The position numbers were made by a program, and so were the translations under genes. From Fulvivirga sp. M361 (GTDB lineage Bacteria; Bacteroidota; Bacteroidia; Cytophagales; Cyclobacteriaceae), in assembly GCF_007097395.1 (NCBI RefSeq), contig NZ_VKDC01000042.1:1-55028 (forward strand): 55,028 nt of DNA, written 5' to 3'. Below the pieces are notes generated by a model. That model had not been told where the DNA came from. It did no database searches and saw only the letters and a program-made list of their open reading frames with translations. Below, one piece after another: positions 32,063-41,157 of this stretch (position 1 is the first letter of the stretch; the number at the start of each line of letters is the position of its first letter).

Positions 32063-32362
32063 ATGGAAAATACAATCAACGCAGCTATACAGATAATCCC
32101 CAAAACTACCCTGAAAGATTATTACCCACTGATTGACGCAGCTATCGATGTGATCAAAGATTCAGGATTGAAATATATCGTTACACCTATGGAAACAGTG
32201 ATAGAAGGTGAATACGGCAAAGTACTTGCTTTACTGGAACGTGCTCAGCGCGCATCTATTGAAGCCGGGGCTGAAGAATTGATCGTAAATATTAAGCTCC
32301 ATATCAGGAACGGTTCAGATATCACATTCGAAGAAAAAACAGCTAAACACCAGCAAGGTTAA
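32063..32362 (+). CDS. Thiamine-binding protein, MTH1187/YkoF family
   Basis: A 99-aa single-domain ferredoxin-like-fold protein of the MTH1187 (DUF77) family. [10 protein letters not shown] opens the domain, [40 protein letters not shown] is the most conserved stretch, and [22 protein letters not shown] closes it. Members bind thiamine, hydroxymethylpyrimidine or similar small ligands and form tetramers in the cytosol. No thiamine-biosynthesis genes are nearby, so the cargo is uncertain. The gene ends within 4 bp of the convergent metG stop; the two stop codons overlap in TTAA. Confidence 0.87.
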
Positions 32363-34410
32363 CTAACCATAGCACCATTATCCACTGTTTCTGAGGGCAA
32401 TACAAATTTCAAATCTCCCGATGAGTCTTCAGCCATTAATATCATTCCCTGCGACTCAATACCCATCATTTTCCTGGGGGCCAGGTTAACCAACACACTA
32501 ACCTGCTTACCAATGATCTCCTCAGGACCGTAGTGCTGTGCTATTCCACTCAGAATAGTTCTTTTGTCTATTCCGGTATCAACGAGCAGTTTCAACAGTT
32601 TTTTAGACTTGGGCATAGCTTCTGCAGTAAGTACAGTACCTATCCGGATGTCTAACTTAGAAAAGTCATCATATGTAATTCCCGGTTTGGGGGCTTTAAC
32701 AGGTACTTCCGCCTGTGCGTTCTGATCTTTGGTATTTTGTAGTTTTTGAATTTGAGCTGCTATTACGTGATCTTCTATTTTCTCAAATAGTAGCTCCACC
32801 TCACCGAGTTGATGTCCTGCCATCAACAATTCTGCCCCACCAGCACTGTCCCAGTTACTAATGGGAGTTCTCAGAATATTTAGGAGTTTTAATGACGTTT
32901 TAGGCAAAAATGGTTCTCCCAATATGGCCAGATTTGCGGCTATTTGAAGCGCAATATTTAAAATAGTGTGAACACGTTCAGGATTATCTTTTATCATCTT
33001 CCAGGGTTCGGTATCAGCCAGGTATTTATTTCCTGTCCTCGCCAGGTCAATAAATTCATTCAGGCCATCTCTGAACTTGAAGGCTTCTAACGCTTTTGCG
33101 ATCCTTTCAGGGGTTTCTTTTACCCGGTTAATAGCTTCTGTGTCTATGTCAAAAAGTTCGCGTCGTTCGGGTATCTTTCCATTATAATACTTATGAGTAA
33201 GTACCAGCGCCCTGTTAATAAAATTACCATAAATGGCCACCAATTCGTTATTATTCCTGGCCTGGAAATCTTTCCATGTAAAATCATTATCTTTCGTTTC
33301 AGGCGCATTGGCACACAATGTATATCTAAGTACATCCTCCTTGCCCGGTAGCTCTTCCAAATATTCGTGCAGCCAGACGGCCCAGTTGCGCGAAGTGCTG
33401 ATCTTGTCTCCTTCCAGGTTAAGAAATTCATTAGCAGGCACATTATCAGGTAAAATATAACTGCCTTCTGCTTTTAGAATACTCGGAAATATAATACAAT
33501 GAAATACAATGTTATCCTTTCCAATAAAATGTATCAGTCGTGTATCCTTTGCTTTCCAATAAGGCTCCCAATCTTTCCCATGACTCCGGGCCCATTCTTT
33601 AGTAGCAGATATATACCCAATAGGCGCGTCAAACCAAACGTAAAGCACCTTCCCATCGGCCCCTTCTACCGGCACTTTTACTCCCCAATCCAAATCCCGG
33701 GTCATTGCTCTGGGTCGAAGACCTGCATCCAGCCATGACTTACACTGTCCATAGACATTGGCTTTCCATTCTTTATGATCTTCCAATATCCACTGACGTA
33801 ACCAGTTCTCATAATTCTCCATAGGCAGGTACCAGTGTGTGGTTTCCTTACGAACCGGTTCCCCCCCGCTCAAGGCAGATTTGGGTTTTATCAGCTCTGA
33901 AGGACTCAATGAAGAACCACATTTTTCACATTGATCACCATAAGCCTGATCGTAATTACAATTAGGACAAGTACCTATAATATAACGGTCTGCAAGAAAT
34001 TGCCCTGCCTCTTCATCATAATATTGTGATGAGGTTTTCTCTTTAAAGACTCCCTGATCAAAGAGCTTTTTAAACAGTTGCGAAGAAGTCTCATGATGTA
34101 CTTGAGCAGAGGTTCGGGAATAAACATTGAAAGAGATTCCAAACTGTTCAAAGGAGTCTTTTATAATCTCATGGTACTCATCCACTACTTCCTGTGGGGT
34201 AACCCCCTCTTTTCTTGCTTTAAGCGTGATAGCCACACCATGCTCATCAGACCCACAAACAAATGCCACATCTCTGCCGCGGCTACGCAAATAGCGAACG
34301 TATATATCTGCAGGCACATAAACTCCTGCTAAATGACCTATGTGAACCGGCCCGTTAGCATAAGGTAAAGCAGCGGTAATGGTATATCGGTTATAACTAT
34401 TCTCTGACAT
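32359..34410 (-). CDS. metG: Methionyl-tRNA synthetase
   Basis: Charges tRNA-Met. The HIGH motif appears as [14 protein letters not shown] near the N-terminus. KMSKS is the variant KISTS in [12 protein letters not shown]. The zinc knuckle [18 protein letters not shown] is present. The C-terminal EMAP/Arc1p-like tRNA-binding domain ([29 protein letters not shown]) makes it the long dimeric form. An in-frame ATG at 34422 adds METR, but the ATG at 34410 gives the usual [21 protein letters not shown] start, and a -7-like TATCTTTG sits on the minus strand at 34433-34440, too close to the upper ATG. Reading from 34410 gives 683 aa. Confidence 0.96.
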
Positions 34411-34479
34411 CCTGGTTTCCAATTTGAATGGGCAAAGATATGTGATTCGAAAACAAATTGAGTGAAATATAAAAAGTGA

Positions 34480-34662
34480 ATGTTTTGTAATCAGGAAGGC
34501 TTTCTCACCTCGGGTTTTGACATAACGTTTTCATCAACGAGTATAATAGCCGGTGCTTATATCCAGTTATTGGATGTTAACGGCAACAAAGCAGATGGAT
34601 ATTTTGATGTTACTGCTTCTAAATTTGATATTAATGGAAGAAGGCGAAAAGGAAATATATAA
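34480..34662 (+). CDS. Possible 60-aa protein or gene remnant
   Basis: An open frame of 60 codons in the metG-kinase gap, starting [19 protein letters not shown]. Residues 14-52 ([22 protein letters not shown]... and [15 protein letters not shown]) read like a beta-rich extracellular module with amphipathic strands, and the codons look used. There is no signal peptide, so it may be the end of a decayed secreted-protein gene. A hairpin with a T-run follows 37 bp after its stop. Confidence 0.3.
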
Positions 34663-34699
34663 GAGAAAATAGTCAGTCAATCTCAGCCGTAAATTTAAG

Positions 34700-34731
34700 A
34701 AGGCCGGTTCATATTATGGACTGACCTTTTT
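34700..34731. terminator. Probable bidirectional terminator between the 60-aa frame and the sensor kinase
   Basis: AAGGCCGGTTC (34700-34710) pairs with GGACTGACCTT, with one mismatch and two wobbles, and is followed by TTTT on the plus strand. It lies 19 bp beyond the sensor-kinase stop on the minus strand, and could end either transcript. Confidence 0.45.
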
Positions 34732-34749
34732 CATACATTGAACGCAGAA

Positions 34750-36786
34750 CTATCCCATTGGAAGACCTACGGTAAACTGAGTATGTCCTTCTCTTGTTTT
34801 TGAGTGATTAATCGTACCCCTCAGCTTTTCTACTGCCAGCCTGACCAGGTATAAGCCCAGGCCAGCACTATCGGACACCTCTGAGGCTTTAGAAAAAATA
34901 TCAAAGATCTTACCCGCCACCTTATCATCAATTCCAATACCATTATCTATCACCTTAAGCTCTACACGACCATTAAGCCTTGTGGCCTCTATTTTGATCC
35001 AAGATTCTATTCGGTCCGAACTGTTGTAGAACTTAGAGGCATTTGAGATCAGATTGTTCAAAATAATCTTGACCAATGCATCATCTGATTTGAAAGCAGG
35101 AACTTCTTCAATCTTATTTTCTACCTTAATATATTTTGCGACCAACTCCTTTTTATATTCTTTCAGGATGTCTTTCACCACTTTTCTGATATCAATTTCG
35201 TGAAGTGTGATTAAAGAGTTATTGATTTGATTAATAATCAAAAGTTTTGAAAGGATAACATTTAACCGATTAGCAGTCATTCCAATCTTTTGAAAATAGT
35301 CCAATGACTGGGCATCATCTATATCGATCAACGCTACATTGCACATACCTTGCAACGTAGCCAGTGGACCACGGATATCATGAGAAGTCTTATATATAAA
35401 GTTATCCAGATCTATATTGGACTGTAATAAGGCCTCGTTGGTTTCTTTTAGTTCCTTGGTCCGTTCCTTAACTTTTTCTTCTAATACACTGTTAATGTCG
35501 TTCAGCTCTTTATTTTTAGTTTCAATTATTGCATTGGCATCAGACAATTGCCGGTTAATTTTCTTTCTTAATTTATTAACACGATACAAAATGACCAGTA
35601 TAACAGTGATTAAAACAATGATGATCGCGAACAGGGCGAGCAACGTTGTCCTCCTGGAAATTTCTTCATCCTGTGATTGGATAGTTTCAAGATTCTCTCG
35701 TTCCTGATAATTGGCCTGACTACTGGCCATCCGAATGATAACATCTTCATTAATGATCAGATTTTTTAAGGAATCATTTATCGTTTGATACTTATAGGCT
35801 AACTCAAAGTCTTCTTCCAGAGCATAGATCCTGGCTAACAGTCCATAATTCTTACTACTCCAGTGCTTATAATTATGTTTACTTGCTATTTCCTGACCTT
35901 CCCACACCTTTACCAAAGCACTATCCATTTTACCCATATCTACATCCAGCCTGGCCAGATTATAGAGTACAGAAGTTATTCTGATCTTCAAGTCATACTC
36001 CCGAGCAATTTTAAGCGCTTTCAAAAAATATTCCCTGGCCAATTTCTGATCTCCATTGGCATAATGACTTAATCCAATACCTCTGTACGATTCAAAGGCT
36101 ATATTTTCACCACATTCATTTTCACAAAGGTCCAGCGCCTCCTCGTAATATTGCAGCGCTTGATCATGTCTGTTTAAAGAAGTCATACACAGGGCCAAAT
36201 TGACTAAGGCCGGTAATTCACTACCGGGTTTAGCTTCTCTGTACAGGCTAACGGATCGCGTCAGGTAATCTGCCGCTAACACGTAATTGCGGATTTGATA
36301 ATAGATCAAGCCGATATTGTTAGCTGATATAGCTACATCCAATTTGTTACCTTGACGTTCACGTAAACCCAGGGACTCCAGGTGATAGACGAGGGCCTGA
36401 TCATATTCACCATTTTCATAATGGATAATACCCAAACTATTTAATGCATAGATTACCCTGTCTTCAAACCCATTATTTTTAGCCACTTGCAAACTGATTG
36501 AATAATGCTTGATTGCTTGCTCAAAATCACCTTTCTTTTGGTATATCCAGCCGACTGCTCGTTCCGCCCGAACCACCATCATGCTGTCTTGAGATTCATA
36601 GCCAAGATTCAACGCAACTTCAGCATAATATAAGGCACTATCCAAGTCCGTTTGTCTGTATGAAACAAACTTCTTAAAGGCTTCGTCTGCCGCAGGCTTT
36701 TTATTCTGACCAAGCAGAACACCAGCTGCTAAAATGGAGCTTAAGACGAAGAAGCTTATTAAACAAATGATGTGTTTACTAAACAT
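34750..36786 (-). CDS. TPR-containing sensor histidine kinase
   Basis: Transmembrane sensor kinase. The frame opens at 36825, but the Met at 36786 is the likelier start, because a signal peptide (MFSKHIICLISFFVLSSILAAG) begins there. Residue numbers below use the upper start. Residues about 50-360 are tetratricopeptide repeats (such as YALNSLGIIHYENGEYDQALVYH), predicted periplasmic. One transmembrane helix lies at 394-416, a coiled coil at 420-475, HisKA has phospho-acceptor His482 (YKTSHDIRGPL), and the ATPase has N-box NNLISNASKF, DNGIGID at 627-633 and AGLGLYL at 654-660. No response regulator is adjacent, so its partner is elsewhere. It is divergent from the peptide genes at 36949-37615. 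Confidence 0.9.
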   Translation of the reverse strand: MFSKHIICLISFFVLSSILAAGVLLGQNKKPAADEAFKKFVSYRQTDLDSALYYAEVALNLGYESQDSMMVVRAERAVGWIYQKKGDFEQAIKHYSISLQVAKNNGFEDRVIYALNSLGIIHYENGEYDQALVYHLESLGLRERQGNKLDVAISANNIGLIYYQIRNYVLAADYLTRSVSLYREAKPGSELPALVNLALCMTSLNRHDQALQYYEEALDLCENECGENIAFESYRGIGLSHYANGDQKLAREYFLKALKIAREYDLKIRITSVLYNLARLDVDMGKMDSALVKVWEGQEIASKHNYKHWSSKNYGLLARIYALEEDFELAYKYQTINDSLKNLIINEDVIIRMASSQANYQERENLETIQSQDEEISRRTTLLALFAIIIVLITVILVILYRVNKLRKKINRQLSDANAIIETKNKELNDINSVLEEKVKERTKELKETNEALLQSNIDLDNFIYKTSHDIRGPLATLQGMCNVALIDIDDAQSLDYFQKIGMTANRLNVILSKLLIINQINNSLITLHEIDIRKVVKDILKEYKKELVAKYIKVENKIEEVPAFKSDDALVKIILNNLISNASKFYNSSDRIESWIKIEATRLNGRVELKVIDNGIGIDDKVAGKIFDIFSKASEVSDSAGLGLYLVRLAVEKLRGTINHSKTREGHTQFTVGLPMG

Positions 36787-36948
36787 GCGTAATGATAGCT
36801 CAAATATTGCTTCATATATGTACAAAAAAAGAATGACCTTCGTATCAAATCATTTCAACTTATTTCGATGTCCACATTTGACAACTTGTAAGAGATGATA
36901 AAAATTTCAAAGTGAATAATAGTTAAATAACCAGCTAAAACCAATAAA

Positions 36949-37083
36949 ATGAAAAGAACATTAACATTCGCCTTTCTTGTATTAACTATCACCATTGTCT
37001 CCAGTTGTTCAGAAGAGGCAGTAGAACCATCAACATCAACTTCAGATGCTACCGGCGTCACTGTTCACGATGAAAACTGGTAA
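36949..37083 (+). CDS. Small predicted surface lipopeptide, copy 1 (44 aa)
   Basis: Not a family I recognise. ATG 36949 to TAA 37083 encodes 44 aa: a basic-hydrophobic signal (MKRTLTFAFLVLTITI), lipobox VSSC with Cys20, then a 25-residue mature part beginning CSEEAVEPSTSTS and ending SDATGVTVHDENW. Ser-Glu-Glu right after the lipid-bearing Cys resembles the export signal that sends lipoproteins to the cell surface in Bacteroidota (established for Flavobacterium and Bacteroides). An A-rich leader (ACCAATAAA) precedes the ATG. It is the first of three tandem copies with an identical last 13 residues, and it starts 162 bp from the kinase start on the other strand. Confidence 0.75.
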   Translation: MKRTLTFAFLVLTITIVSSCSEEAVEPSTSTSDATGVTVHDENW

Positions 37084-37115
37084 ACTTTTCTCTTTCAAAT
37101 TATTAAACCAAAAAT

Positions 37116-37253
37116 ATGAAAACTAAAATTATACTCCTTACAATTCTCAGTATCACTGCTATCGGCTTCTCCTCGTGTTCAGAGGAAGCGATCGAACCTT
37201 CTACATCTACTTCGGATGCCACAGGCGTCACCGTTCACGATGAAAACTGGTAA
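37116..37253 (+). CDS. Small predicted surface lipopeptide, copy 2 (45 aa)
   Basis: 45 aa from ATG 37116 to TAA 37253: signal MKTKIILLTILSITAIG, lipobox-like FSSC with Cys21, then SEEAIEPSTSTS and the invariant tail SDATGVTVHDENW. The signal differs from copy 1, while the mature part differs by one residue (Ile for Val at position 26). Codons in the tail differ from copy 1 only at silent positions (TCG/TCA, GCC/GCT, ACA/ACC, ACC/ACT), as expected if the peptide is held by selection. It lies 32 bp after copy 1, probably in one transcript. Confidence 0.75.
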   Translation: MKTKIILLTILSITAIGFSSCSEEAIEPSTSTSDATGVTVHDENW

Positions 37254-37279
37254 AAACTAACCTTATAAACCTTAAAAAT

Positions 37280-37417
37280 ATGAAAACCAAAATTATACTC
37301 TTTACTATTCTTTGTATCACTGCCATCGGCTTCTCTTCTTGCTCTGAAGAAGCAATCGAACCTTCTACGTCGAGATCAGATGCCACAGGCGTCACTGTTC
37401 ACGATGAAAACTGGTAA
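37280..37417 (+). CDS. Small predicted surface lipopeptide, copy 3 (45 aa)
   Basis: 45 aa from ATG 37280 to TAA 37417. The signal MKTKIILFTILCITAIG is near-identical to copy 2, the lipobox is FSSC (Cys21), and the mature part is SEEAIEPSTSR then the same SDATGVTVHDENW tail. It differs from copy 2 in the mature part only by Thr to Arg at position 32. It is 26 bp downstream of copy 2; copies 2 and 3 look like the most recent duplication. No independent promoter is evident between copies. Confidence 0.75.
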   Translation: MKTKIILFTILCITAIGFSSCSEEAIEPSTSRSDATGVTVHDENW

Positions 37418-37447
37418 AAATTAACAACTTATTTAAATACTAAAACT

Positions 37448-37615
37448 ATGAAATCTAAATTAATAATTGCCCTTGTTTCTATGGCTGTAGCCCTATCATT
37501 TGCATTTACAATAATTAACAAAGGAGAGCGAGCCAATAATAAAAATCAATCTATCGACAGCAAGCAAGAAAGAGCATTACCAGGTTTTGTTGCTGAGGAT
37601 GAAGATTCATTCTAG
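37448..37615 (+). CDS. Related small exported peptide (55 aa)
   Basis: 55 aa from ATG 37448 to TAG 37615, 30 bp after lipopeptide copy 3. A signal or membrane anchor (MKSKLIIALVSMAVALSFAFTII) precedes a polar mature part rich in Asn, Lys and Gln. It has no Cys, so it is not a lipoprotein. Its end, GFVAEDEDSF, resembles the lipopeptide end GVTVHDENW: Gly-x-Val, an acidic cluster with Asp-Glu, then a single aromatic as the last residue. The resemblance is short, so a common origin is inference. No family recognised. Confidence 0.6.
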   Translation: MKSKLIIALVSMAVALSFAFTIINKGERANNKNQSIDSKQERALPGFVAEDEDSF

Positions 37616-38254
37616 GCTTATTAATTCCTTTAATATCAGGATTTTAATATGACAAAAATAGATGGAGTTAAAAAGTTCTTGTTAGTATTCATAATTAAAT
37701 AATAACAAGGCGATGAAACCTGGATATTCATGTATCTATGGAAAACCATGGTGGTTTTTCAAAATGCCAAATGAAGTCGTCCATGATATAACGCACGTAT
37801 TGCCTAAGACGGTATAACTTATGAATTTCACTTTGATTTCACCGTTTTATTCTTTGAAAGGCAATGCATATTGAATTCATATTGTTTAGAATGGCATAAA
37901 ATCCTACAAGTTACTCATCAATGTAGAAATAGTTATATTCAATCATACATTTAAAAAAAAGCACCTATATAACTAATTATAAACGACTTATAGCCCTGGA
38001 GTCATATAAGTTTTAGTCCTTTTCTCAATATATATCCCGCCAATGTGCAATTTCGAAAGCAAAACTTACATGCTTTTGTAACACCCTGCGGTTACCTATT
38101 CAAAAGTTTTATTCGATCTGAAAAAATTAGATCGACACCATTTTCCAGGCAAAAAAAAGCTACTTTACCCCGCTTTACAGACCGTAAAAACTATCCCAGA
38201 CCTACACTATAAATTTTGCCAGACTTTAGTAGCTTTGCTGCTTAAATATACACT
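37616..38254. other. 639-bp gap without a convincing gene
   Basis: Between the peptide cluster and typA. It holds only short frames (for example 34 codons at 37713-37817) and a small hairpin, TCGATCT/AGATCGA at 38113-38135, with no T-run. A -7-like TAGCTTTG at 38230-38237 could belong to typA. No tRNA, repeat array or transposon end is visible. A small RNA or decayed peptide gene cannot be excluded. Confidence 0.6.
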
Positions 38255-40063
38255 ATGCAAAACATCAGAAACGTGGCTATTATTGCCCACGTTGACCACG
38301 GCAAAACTACGCTGGTAGATCAAATCATCCATGCTTCTAAAATCTTAAGGGAAAATCAGGAATCAGGAGAGCTTATTCTTGACAATGAAGATTTAGAAAA
38401 AGAGCGAGGTATCACAATCGTTTCAAAGAATGTTTCTGTTCGTTATAATGATGTCAAAATCAATATAATCGATACCCCCGGCCACGCCGACTTTGGAGGT
38501 GAGGTAGAGCGTGTGCTCAAAATGTCTGATGGTGTTCTACTCTTGGTCGATGCTTTCGAAGGACCTATGCCCCAAACACGTTTTGTATTGAGCAAAGCGT
38601 TGGCTTTAGGGTTGAAACCTATTGTAGTTGTTAATAAAGTCGATAAGGAAAATTGTCGTCCTGATGAGGTCCATGAACAGGTTTTTGACTTAATGTTTAA
38701 TCTCGATGCCACGGAAGATCAGTTAGATTTCCCTACACTTTACGGCTCATCCAAGCAAGGTTGGATGAGCGATGACTGGAACAAACCTACCGATACGATT
38801 TTTCCTTTACTGGACGCTATAATAAAACATATTCCGCCTGCACCTCAGAAAGACGGGGTACCCCAAATGCAGATCACCTCACTGGACTTCTCCTCTTACG
38901 TTGGCCGTATTGCCATAGGCCGGATTAGTCAGGGTGTCATAAAAGAAGGGGCTACCCTGGGATTGAGTAAGAAAGATGACAAACTGAAACGAATAAAAAT
39001 AAAGGAAGTACATATTTTTGAAGGGCTTGGAAAGGTAAAGGTGCCTGAAGCTGCCTCAGGTGAAATATGTGCACTTGTTGGCGTTGAGGATTTCGACTTA
39101 GGTGATACAGTCACAGATTTTGAAAATCCTGAACCACTACCACGGATCGCTATAGATGAGCCAACAATGAGTATGTTATTTACCATTAACAACTCACCAT
39201 TCTTTGGTAAAGAGGGCAAGTTTGTTACTTCAAGGCATCTTAGAGAGAGACTGTTTAAAGAAACTGAAAAAAACCTCGCTCTGCGTGTTGAAGAAACTGA
39301 CTCAGAAGATCGTTTTAACGTATTTGGACGTGGTATATTGCATTTATCCGTGCTTATAGAAACCATGAGAAGGGAAGGCTATGAACTTCAGGTTGGTCAA
39401 CCTCAGGTTCTGATCAAAGAAGTCGACGGAGTAAAGCATGAGCCGATTGAACACTTGGTAGTCGATGTACCGGAAGAGACTTCGGGAAAAGTAATTGAGC
39501 TGGTAAGCGCCAAAAAAGGAGAAATGACCATCATGGAACCCAAGGGCGATTTACAGCATTTGGAATTTGATATTCCGGCAAGAGGATTAATTGGATTAAG
39601 AAATAATGTGCTGACAGCTACAGGTGGAGAGGCTATTATGACTCACCGCTTTAAAGAATATGCGCCCTTCAAGGGCGATATCCCCGGACGTATTAATGGG
39701 TCTCTGATTTCTATGGAGTCAGGTCCGGCTACACCCTACACGCTCGATAAACTCCAGGACAGAGGTATATTTTTTGTAGAACCAGGTATAGATTTGTATA
39801 CAGGTCAGGTGATAGGTGAACACTCCAGGGATAATGACCTGGTGGTAAATGTTCAGAAGGGAAAAAAGCTCACCAACATGCGCGCTTCAGGTTCGGATTC
39901 AAACGCGAAGATTGTTCCTCCAAGGAAATTCTCCCTTGAGGAAGGAATGGAATACATCCAAAAAGATGAGTACCTGGAAATCACGCCTAAATCTATACGA
40001 ATGAGGAAGATCTACCTGGATGAAAACGAACGCAAACGAATGAGCGGAGGACAGAAAATCTAA
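38255..40063 (+). CDS. typA: Translational GTPase TypA/BipA
   Basis: Ribosome-binding GTPase of the EF-G family that supports 50S assembly, stress and cold growth. The 602-aa length is normal. The G motifs are [10 protein letters not shown] (G1, 11-20), RGITI (G2), DTPGHADF (G3), NKVD (G4) and the GSSKQGW G5 region. Domain II, III and V and the BipA C-terminal domain follow, including [38 protein letters not shown] and [23 protein letters not shown]. Preceded by the long gene-free gap, so its promoter is probably its own. Confidence 0.97.
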
Positions 40064-40113
40064 AGCAATGGTAATAGTGGTGGGCTGAACTGAGTTCACC
40101 ATTAGGTAGTAAA

Positions 40114-40149
40114 ACCCTGAGTCGTATGATAAGTTATAAGACTCAGGGT
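40114..40149 (-). terminator. Hairpin between typA and bioB
   Basis: ACCCTGAGTC (40114-40123) pairs perfectly with 40140-40149 around a 16-nt loop. On the minus strand the stem runs into GGGTTTT, so it fits a bioB terminator, and it may also stop typA read-through. Confidence 0.6.
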
Positions 40150-40170
40150 ATGTATAAACTTCTCTAGAAA

Positions 40171-41157
40171 TCAAGATTCCAATACAGGCTCCTTTTCATT
40201 TTTAAAAGATTTCCTCGGCTTAAGATTAAGTACCTGAAACATTTCCTGGTCTTTTACTACTTTCGGATTAGGAGTAGTAAGTAACTTATCTCCGGCAAAT
40301 ATTGAGTTAGCACCGGCCATAAAACACAATGCTTGTTCTTCCAGGTCCATCATAACTCTTCCGGCAGAAAGTCGTACCATGGATTTTGGCATCAGTATGC
40401 GTGCTGTGGCTATCATACGTACCATCTCCCATACGCTCACACGTGGCTGGTCTTCCAATGGTGTTCCTTCAACAGGAACGAGTGCATTGACAGGCACCGA
40501 TTCTGGATGTTGTGGTAAGTTCACTAAGGTGAGTAACATACTGATCCGGTCTTCTTCCTTTTCTCCGAGACCTATAATACCCCCTGAACAAACAGAAATA
40601 TCTGCCTTCCTTACGTTTTCCAGGGTGTCTAAACGGTCATTGTAAGTACGGGTACTGATAATCGTATCATAATGTTCTTCACTGGTGTCCAGGTTATGGT
40701 TGTAGGCATACAGGCCTGCTTCCTTCAGTTTTGTAGCTTGCTCTTCCGTAAGCATTCCTAACGTACAGCAAACCTCCATACCAATGGAATTCACACTTTT
40801 CACCATTTCCAACACACTGTCAAAATCACGGTTGTCACGAATTGCTCTCCAGGCTGCTCCCATACAAAAGCGTGTACTACCGGCTTCTTTAGCTTCAAGG
40901 GCTCTACCAAGTACCTCCTGGGTATCCAATAGCTTATGAACCTGAACGTCGGTATTATACCTGGCTGCCTGCGGGCAATAAGAACAGTCTTCCGGACACC
41001 CACCTGTCTTTACTGACAACAGTGTGCATACCTGTACCTCACTTGCATCATTATATTCTCTGTGTACGGTAGCTGCTCTGTAAATCAGCTCCATAATAGG
41101 CGAGTGGTAGATCTCTGCTACCTCTTCTTTTGTCCAGTTATTTCTAATACTACTCAT
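40171..41157 (-). CDS. bioB: Biotin synthase
   Basis: Radical-SAM enzyme that inserts sulfur into dethiobiotin, the last step of biotin synthesis. The SAM cluster motif is CPEDCSYC (three Cys of Cx3Cx2C). [29 protein letters not shown], the metal-site neighbourhood RLSAGRVMM and [17 protein letters not shown] are diagnostic. The frame opens at 41193, but the ATG at 41157 gives the usual [13 protein letters not shown] start and 328 aa. No other bio genes are nearby. Upstream lies sppA on the same strand, 78 bp away from the longer frame's start. Confidence 0.96.

Follow-up and report, generated by a model that had tools for sequence, protein, structure and literature searches.

Three adjacent open reading frames (ORFs) in the genome of Fulvivirga sp. 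M361 encode products of 44, 45, and 45 aa, each with a lipobox-like signal end and a 25-residue mature part that closes with the same tail (SDATGVTVHDENW), and they raise the question of what such a small lipopeptide does in three copies. The preliminary description of this locus suggested a signaling, adhesion, or contact-dependent factor; signaling is the best reading of the data presented here, and adhesion and contact action found no support of their own. The window (i.e., the whole stretch of DNA analyzed) is 55,028 nucleotides long, and the features under discussion are listed in Table 1.

Table 1. Features of the lipopeptide locus, with positions in the window
Feature	Positions	Strand	Description or basis
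metG, flanking marker	32359..34422	-	domain search; synteny
TPR sensor histidine kinase	34750..36786	-	Pfam domains, orthologues, structure model
Divergent intergenic region, kinase/lipopeptide 1	36787..36948	.	162 bases, assuming ATG start
Lipopeptide gene 1	36949..37083	+	44 aa; mature part CSEEAVEPSTSTSDATGVTVHDENW
Tail, copy 1	37042..37080	+	13 codons, SDATGVTVHDENW
Lipopeptide gene 2	37116..37253	+	45 aa
Tail, copy 2	37212..37250	+	13 codons, SDATGVTVHDENW
Lipopeptide gene 3	37280..37417	+	45 aa
Tail, copy 3	37376..37414	+	13 codons, SDATGVTVHDENW
Second peptide	37448..37615	+	55 aa; N-terminus hydrophobic; lipobox absent; ends in GFVAEDEDSF
typA/bipA-like GTPase, flanking marker	38255..40063	+	synteny; own sequence

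Lipopeptide genes in the window

The signal peptides of the three copies end in VSSC, FSSC, and FSSC, and all three carry, by pattern, the positive start, hydrophobic segment, and lipobox Cys of bacterial lipoproteins. The signals diverge (copy 1 is identical to copies 2 and 3 at 4/19 and 5/19 residues; copies 2 and 3 are identical at 18/20), and the mature parts share 23 to 24 of their 25 residues. The 39 bases (13 codons) of the tail differ at four sites, all of them third positions and all silent. Silent changes make up 22% of the possible single changes in the tail, and four silent differences out of four would arise by chance with p of approximately 0.002. These silent differences, together with pN/pS ratios well below 1, support purifying selection, and the proposal of the preliminary description that the peptide rather than the DNA is conserved is borne out. 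The same description pointed to a resemblance between the Ser-Glu-Glu after the lipid Cys and a surface-export signal. Indeed, all three copies read C-S-E-E, and passages of PMC5080379 describe the Bacteroidetes lipoprotein export signal (LES) as a polar residue followed by acidic residues after the +1 Cys (i.e., SDDDD and SDDFE). The window lipopeptides agree with this sequence pattern; their surface location is putative.

The family of three genes had been described as running to position 37615, a span that also takes in a fourth, undescribed ORF (the second peptide in Table 1). The earlier description was silent on this peptide and on the key neighbor, a divergently oriented TPR histidine kinase, which are the carriers of the mechanism proposed below. 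The likely start of the kinase is the ATG at 36786, and the mechanical ORF begins at a TTG at 36825. The name typA/bipA for the downstream GTPase is our assumption from its sequence, not from a family search. No convincing promoter consensus was found on the lipopeptide side of the intergenic region; the motif TAnnTTTG occurred in 7 (lipopeptide strand) and 16 (kinase strand) of 78 such regions, compared with 4.7 in shuffles. A search of positions 34000 to 40200 against Rfam returned nothing at gathering score, and neither an exporter nor a protease was seen directly beside the window copies, the neighbors being metG and typA. Two antisense ORFs from the mechanical ORF list (36855-37061 and 37228-37395, minus strand) overlap the lipopeptide genes and were taken as chance.

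Conserved pairing with a divergent TPR histidine kinase

The kinase matched the Pfam domains TPR_12 (1.6e-31), HATPase_c (1.8e-17), and HisKA (6.3e-6, just under its cut-off). Its layout consists of an N-terminal hydrophobic helix, the TPRs, another long helix that crosses the membrane, and HisKA/HATPase_c; Pfam and the structure model thus place in one protein the TPRs, membrane segment, HisKA, and HATPase_c of a TPR sensor histidine kinase. The TPR superhelix is predicted to be periplasmic. Its model (pLDDT 86, pTM 0.55) is closest in fold to the TPR domains of LGN/Pins, several of which have been solved with partners, and profile searches with the sensor matched engineered TPRs best, followed by LGN, and also kinesin light chains and the Rap phosphatases 3q15 and 4i9c.

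An orthologue of the kinase was present in all of the 15 genomes that belong to the same genus as the window and, at E 1e-75, in 23 of the 148 genomes sampled from the family. Among the best named matches listed, the genus Fulvivirga is represented by F. marina, F. imtechensis, F. kasyanovii, F. sediminis, and F. lutimaris, and the wider set includes Chryseolinea, Ohtaekwangia, Chryseosolibacter, Dawidia, and many Cyclobacteriaceae or Cytophagales MAGs. From the best matches listed, we compiled 78 named loci, 73 of which have at least 200 bases upstream of the kinase (L070, L098, L121, L128, and L133 fall short of this length and were left out). In 70 of these 73 loci, one to four lipopeptide genes are divergent from the kinase. 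A stricter rule placed a lipopeptide beside the kinase in 68/73 loci, compared with 1/365 shuffled regions, 0/73 on the other strand, and, as a rule-based count, 8/186 upstream regions of other genes. Lipopeptides were likewise found in all 12 genus loci with upstream DNA (one gene is cut by a contig end; two further loci, cut at the kinase, lie outside the 12) and in 17 of 18 loci from the rest of the family (the 19 matches there, less G079), these sets being partly the same genomes as the named loci. No peptide was detected beside the kinase orthologue in L057, L113 (Marivirga), L137, and L139. The homologues in related genomes that the preliminary description called for are thus present in the genus, in the family, and among the named loci. 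The recurrent order is metG, the TPR histidine kinase, one to four tandem lipopeptides divergent from it, the small non-lipid peptide, and often typA.

The ORFs are short, as would be expected if they were chance or annotation artifacts that are left untranslated. The single hit in 365 shuffles, the pN/pS values well below 1 in every comparison, and the four silent tail differences out of four make this explanation scarcely credible.

We examined 10 further TPR kinases encoded in the same genome as the window (73 kinase matches gave 30 loci, of which these were 10), and none had such a neighbor. Six paralogous TPR-kinase loci (L038-L043) are without a lipopeptide of this type. In two members of the genus, single-domain response regulators lie near the kinase (L025:1605-2012 and L030:12043-12513); they are candidate partners of the otherwise orphan kinase. 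We also observed a stand-alone Peptidase_C39-like domain between the kinase and metG (L031:9664-10077; E 3e-17), in which the usual catalytic Cys position looks, by eye, like Ser. Apart from this lone C39-like domain, no exporter was found beside the pair in the genus and family loci listed.

Protein searches returned 352 lipopeptide clusters and 64 second-peptide clusters; no listed cluster carries a Pfam domain, and nearly all of the named ones are hypothetical proteins. At E < 1e-8, the lipopeptide profile matched only members of the window's own family, in 14/390 genomes order-wide and 4/395 genomes phylum-wide, in searches that scored only the best first-look candidates and that may have missed others. 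Weaker matches, which include L205 and L206 (see below), lie nearly all in longer frames; L009 and L012 were dropped as homologues, being the starts of longer lipoproteins. No described family was found above any cut-off for the peptides in Pfam, PADLOC, or NCBIfam, in agreement with the preliminary description. Three NCBIfam candidates were rejected, namely, the PG1828 family lipoprotein (NF050142; 18.8, 23.1, and 22.4 bits versus a curated 50), the PhrA family for the second peptide (NF033799; 20.7 bits over residues 1-34 versus a curated 40), and FimS for the kinase (NF053520; 92.8 bits versus a curated 600). The better-scoring members of the PG1828 family have other bodies, and 0 of 30 PG1828 loci have a kinase like the two query kinases in the DNA examined.

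Entericidins and colicin lysis lipoproteins are of comparable size and tandem order, and the window genes, which recall them in both respects, could be bacteriocin-like or lytic small lipoproteins whose production is under kinase control. We consider this very unlikely. A search of 45 members against Pfam at E 0.05 revealed no entericidin or other toxin family (the best E value, 0.005, was to an unrelated family, and LPAM_1 matched 4/45 members weakly); moreover, the bodies are acidic, Gly-rich, and non-amphipathic, and no immunity gene or exporter was noticed beside the peptides.

Tail variation, the sensor, and the second peptide

Across 117 of the best 120 of the 352 relatives, the mature core C-T-E-E-E-V-x-P is near-fixed and is followed by a Gly-rich hinge and a free end; entropy is at most 0.14 bits at C+2 to C+4 and 3.4 bits at the last residue. 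Because the relatives listed are the best scorers, the conservation of the core is, if anything, overstated. Within genomes, pN/pS was 0.16 for the tail, 0.09 for the core, and 0.36 for the signal peptide (L106, a near twin of L101, was left out of these pairs). Since pS within genomes was 0.46 to 0.58, the copies do not stem from recent duplication, nor has their DNA been freshly homogenized. The last 12 residues are without amino-acid change between copies in 15 of 21 multi-copy loci (59 pairs, L106 included), and the very end differs in 6 of the 21; the C-terminal alignment used for this comparison understates identity in L047, L051, L107, and L118, in which the inner tail is shared and the very end differs.

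Between species, pN/pS for the tail and the signal peptide, respectively, was 0.48 and 0.45 at kinase identities of 0.55 to 0.65, 0.33 and 0.29 at 0.65 to 0.75, 0.23 and 0.24 at 0.75 to 0.90, and 0.23 and 0.27 above 0.90, with synonymous sites near saturation in the wider comparisons. The core remained at 0.05 to 0.15 throughout (0.15 at identities of 0.55 to 0.65). The tail is, in other words, about as free as the signal peptide between species, and yet, at 0.23 to 0.48, it does not vary as neutral sequence would. The invariant tail of the preliminary description is therefore a property of this genome; across species, it is in the tail that the mature peptide varies. Because most species fix one tail in all copies while species differ, the pattern is pherotype-like.

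Two variants of the peptide deserve mention. Tails with two Cys residues (e.g., DPCQFGGPGCK), perhaps forming a disulfide-closed end, occur upstream of the kinase in L072, L074, L075, L078, L088, L102, L120, and L134, and a metagenome protein of 67 aa (P0003) contains the Cys-to-tail unit twice in one chain.

We compared tail divergence with that of the kinase in 66 of 76 loci, i.e., those with metG in the stretch. Tail distance correlated with TPR sensor distance, given the kinase domain and MetG (r = 0.52, in a Mantel test whose permutation p-values ignore phylogeny), and the correlation of the tail with the kinase domain, given the sensor and MetG, was 0.06 (p 0.20). Given the kinase domain only, the tail-sensor value was 0.58, versus r = 0.33 for the control (MetG and sensor). 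With MetG corrected for, tail divergence hence tracks the TPR sensor, not the kinase domain. The tail correlation is stronger for concave TPR positions than for convex ones (0.35 versus 0.19; 66 loci); when only the closest kinases are compared, the convex face does no worse than the concave one (convex, 0.38; concave, 0.28). Asn residues at TPR positions 5/6 (N129, N169, N170, and N209) are 88 to 97% conserved, and the concave positions, taken as one set, show the same variability as the other surface positions of helix B (2.54 bits each). TPR proteins in general often have conserved Asn residues; their combination here with variable concave positions would be in keeping with a groove that grips the backbone and varies in its side-chain pockets.

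These correlations bear on the possibility that the kinase merely regulates the lipopeptide operon while the peptides do an envelope job (e.g., coat, adhesion, or lipid packing) without binding to it. Divergent regulator-target arrangements are common, and the divergent genes, the lipid anchor, and the export-signal-like start would all be at home in such a scheme. It gives no reason, however, for a tail that tracks the sensor domain and not the kinase domain or for one tail per genome across copies while species differ, and we regard it as rather improbable.

The second peptide (approximately 46 to 65 aa, without a lipobox) follows the lipopeptides in most loci. Among the 68 loci with both peptides, the last residue is shared by the lipopeptide and the second peptide in 29, compared with 12.2 by permutation; after thinning to <50% kinase identity, the match persists (10/23 versus 4.9), and matches at the positions before the last residue are not significant. 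In 34 independent pairs on a tree from kinase residues 371-691, the end of the second peptide differs in 12 of 17 pairs in which the lipopeptide end differs and in 2 of 17 pairs in which it is the same (Fisher p 0.0006; branch length unmatched). The last residues of the two peptides change together. Examples of matched ends are SERI/SERI in L087, DGPY/DQAY in L076 beside DDAF/DQAF in L122, and SDRL/ETRL in L109 beside SDKF/ESQF in L101; the window's own pair is mismatched, with the lipopeptides ending in W and the second peptide in F.

On balance, we consider it probable that the lipopeptides and the second peptide are ligands of the divergent TPR kinase, which would serve as their receptor. 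The peptides would leave by the Sec and lipoprotein route, the three lipopeptide genes giving one C-terminal peptide on lipid-anchored carriers and the fourth ORF giving a related peptide on a non-lipid carrier. The predicted periplasmic TPR superhelix would grip the tail, on its carrier or cut free, and kinase activity would change. Several identical genes or repeats would raise the peptide dose, and joint changes of tail and groove would keep the signal private. The peptide may also undergo proteolytic trimming, perhaps after the conserved Gly, and release for species-private use between cells. We infer binding, the direction of the effect, trimming, release, and cell-to-cell use from these patterns. 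If the lipopeptide were flipped to the cell surface, the periplasmic sensor would meet it only after release or re-entry.

The main rival to this reading is an in-cell envelope sentinel, in which the kinase would sense a misplaced small lipoprotein and the tail would be a contact site, with no signal between cells. NlpE and RcsF report lipoprotein trafficking in E. coli, and the peptides are lipidated, adjoin the kinase, and have an export-signal-like acidic start; a periplasmic sensor could, moreover, meet a periplasmic lipopeptide directly. A sentinel nevertheless calls for neither a changing tail nor several identical copies, and neither for a non-lipid partner with a co-changing end nor for the repeat precursors of the Flavobacterium-like lineage described below, and we judge it unlikely. 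If the peptides are ligands, species-specific peptide ligands of TPR kinases plausibly constitute a class of peptide signaling new for Bacteroidota. A species-private peptide signal would be unexpected for this bacterial group, and the pairing and co-variation provide a list of testable peptides across many genera.

Known signaling systems and other TPR-kinase neighborhoods

Peptide signaling through histidine kinases is a Gram-positive theme. In ComX-ComP, CSP-ComD, and AgrD-AgrC, a small precursor with a conserved carrier and a variable signal end is encoded beside a membrane histidine kinase, and specificity is at the species level. These Gram-positive peptide-pheromone two-component systems are also named in PMC8895600. 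The module shares with them the precursor gene beside the histidine kinase (in 70 of the 73 named loci from the best matches listed), the conserved carrier with a variable end, and a putative species-level specificity. It differs in its lipoprotein precursors and non-lipid carrier, its TPR superhelix sensor, and its Gram-negative host; furthermore, no dedicated exporter or processing enzyme was seen beside the window genes, and no homology was found.

Peptide sensing by a TPR superhelix, as proposed here, is the likeness to the RRNPP receptors (Rap, NprR, PlcR, and PrgX, with Phr-type peptides), of which RapH (3q15) and RapF (4i9c) were among the profile matches. RRNPP receptors, which are not histidine kinases, reside in the cytoplasm, whereas the sensor here is part of a histidine kinase, with its TPRs between two membrane segments and predicted to be periplasmic, and the peptides are lipoproteins; it is not a cytoplasmic TPR receptor for a re-imported peptide. 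Enterococcal sex pheromones come from lipoprotein signal peptides and thus likewise have a lipoprotein precursor as the source of a short signal. In the module, by contrast, it is the signal peptide that diverges between copies (4-5/19 identical; pN/pS 0.36) and the C-terminal tail that is fixed (0.16). The Gly-rich hinge before the variable end recalls double-glycine peptides with C39 ABC exporters, and some Fulvivirga TPR-kinase paralogues lie near C39 exporters and GG-leader ORFs. Here, however, a lipoprotein signal replaces the N-terminal GG leader, and several Fulvivirga tails, including that of the window, lack GG; cleavage after a double glycine is only an idea. In the Fulvivirga stretches L030:1-4442, L038:2906-8999, and L039:1-6428, TPR kinases or paralogues are found near C39-peptidase ABC exporters or similar, together with HlyD proteins and small ORFs with double-glycine leaders.

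Searches of the open-license PMC literature brought up no comparable peptide-kinase system in Bacteroidota. Because no peptide component matches a described family and no such pairing turned up in these searches, we regard the module as new in kind; under a broader view that puts all peptide-kinase pairs together, it would be a novel variant within that one kind. The nearest studied sensor type is FimS of Porphyromonas gingivalis, which likewise has a periplasmic TPR sensor on a histidine kinase; according to passages of PMC11053733, FimS carries eight periplasmic TPRs, its signal is unknown, and a polypeptide ligand is considered possible. The peptides described here suggest what kind of ligand might be tried on TPR kinases of the phylum with unknown signals, FimS being the studied example.

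L205 and L206, weak matches of the lipopeptide profile, come from a genus outside the window's family; its ribosomal protein L2 has its closest match in PDB 7jil, which we take to be from Flavobacterium johnsoniae. L205 (3764-4786) and L206 (3831-5488) encode four and seven tandem lipopeptides ending in DPVIIPKKD or DPIIIPKKD. Next in order come a non-lipid peptide of 60 aa, whose tail (PILIIKND) mirrors theirs, a HisKA_3-class TPR kinase, and a response regulator. The TPR-HisKA_3 kinase family is present in 101 of 121 sampled genomes. Among the best 30 of the 101 genomes with a match (29 loci were used, L231 being edge-cut), a small signal-peptide-like ORF lies within 700 bases upstream on the kinase strand in 27/29 loci, compared with 0/29 on the other strand and 1/580 in shuffles.

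Since a different kinase class shows the same logic, a shared principle is more likely than a Fulvivirga quirk. It is quite possible, and we advance it tentatively, that Bacteroidota possess a large peptide-signaling class of their own, in which TPR histidine kinases are the receptors of species-private peptides made in several identical doses and delivered from tandem lipopeptide genes, on a non-lipid carrier with a mirrored tail, or as repeat precursors. If so, the window locus would represent this class in Cytophagales, and FimS and other orphan TPR kinases would await their peptides. In the Flavobacterium-like genus, 13 of the 27 precursors repeat an internal stretch of 8 or more residues exactly (in L230, a 14-residue unit occurs six times), and 22/27 end in [KR]xD, versus 1/130 long ORFs. 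Across L209-L238 (e.g., L230, L218, and L224), we observed secreted precursors with two to six identical internal repeats, such as IIGGNATGGNMKLD, upstream of TPR-HisKA_3 kinases.
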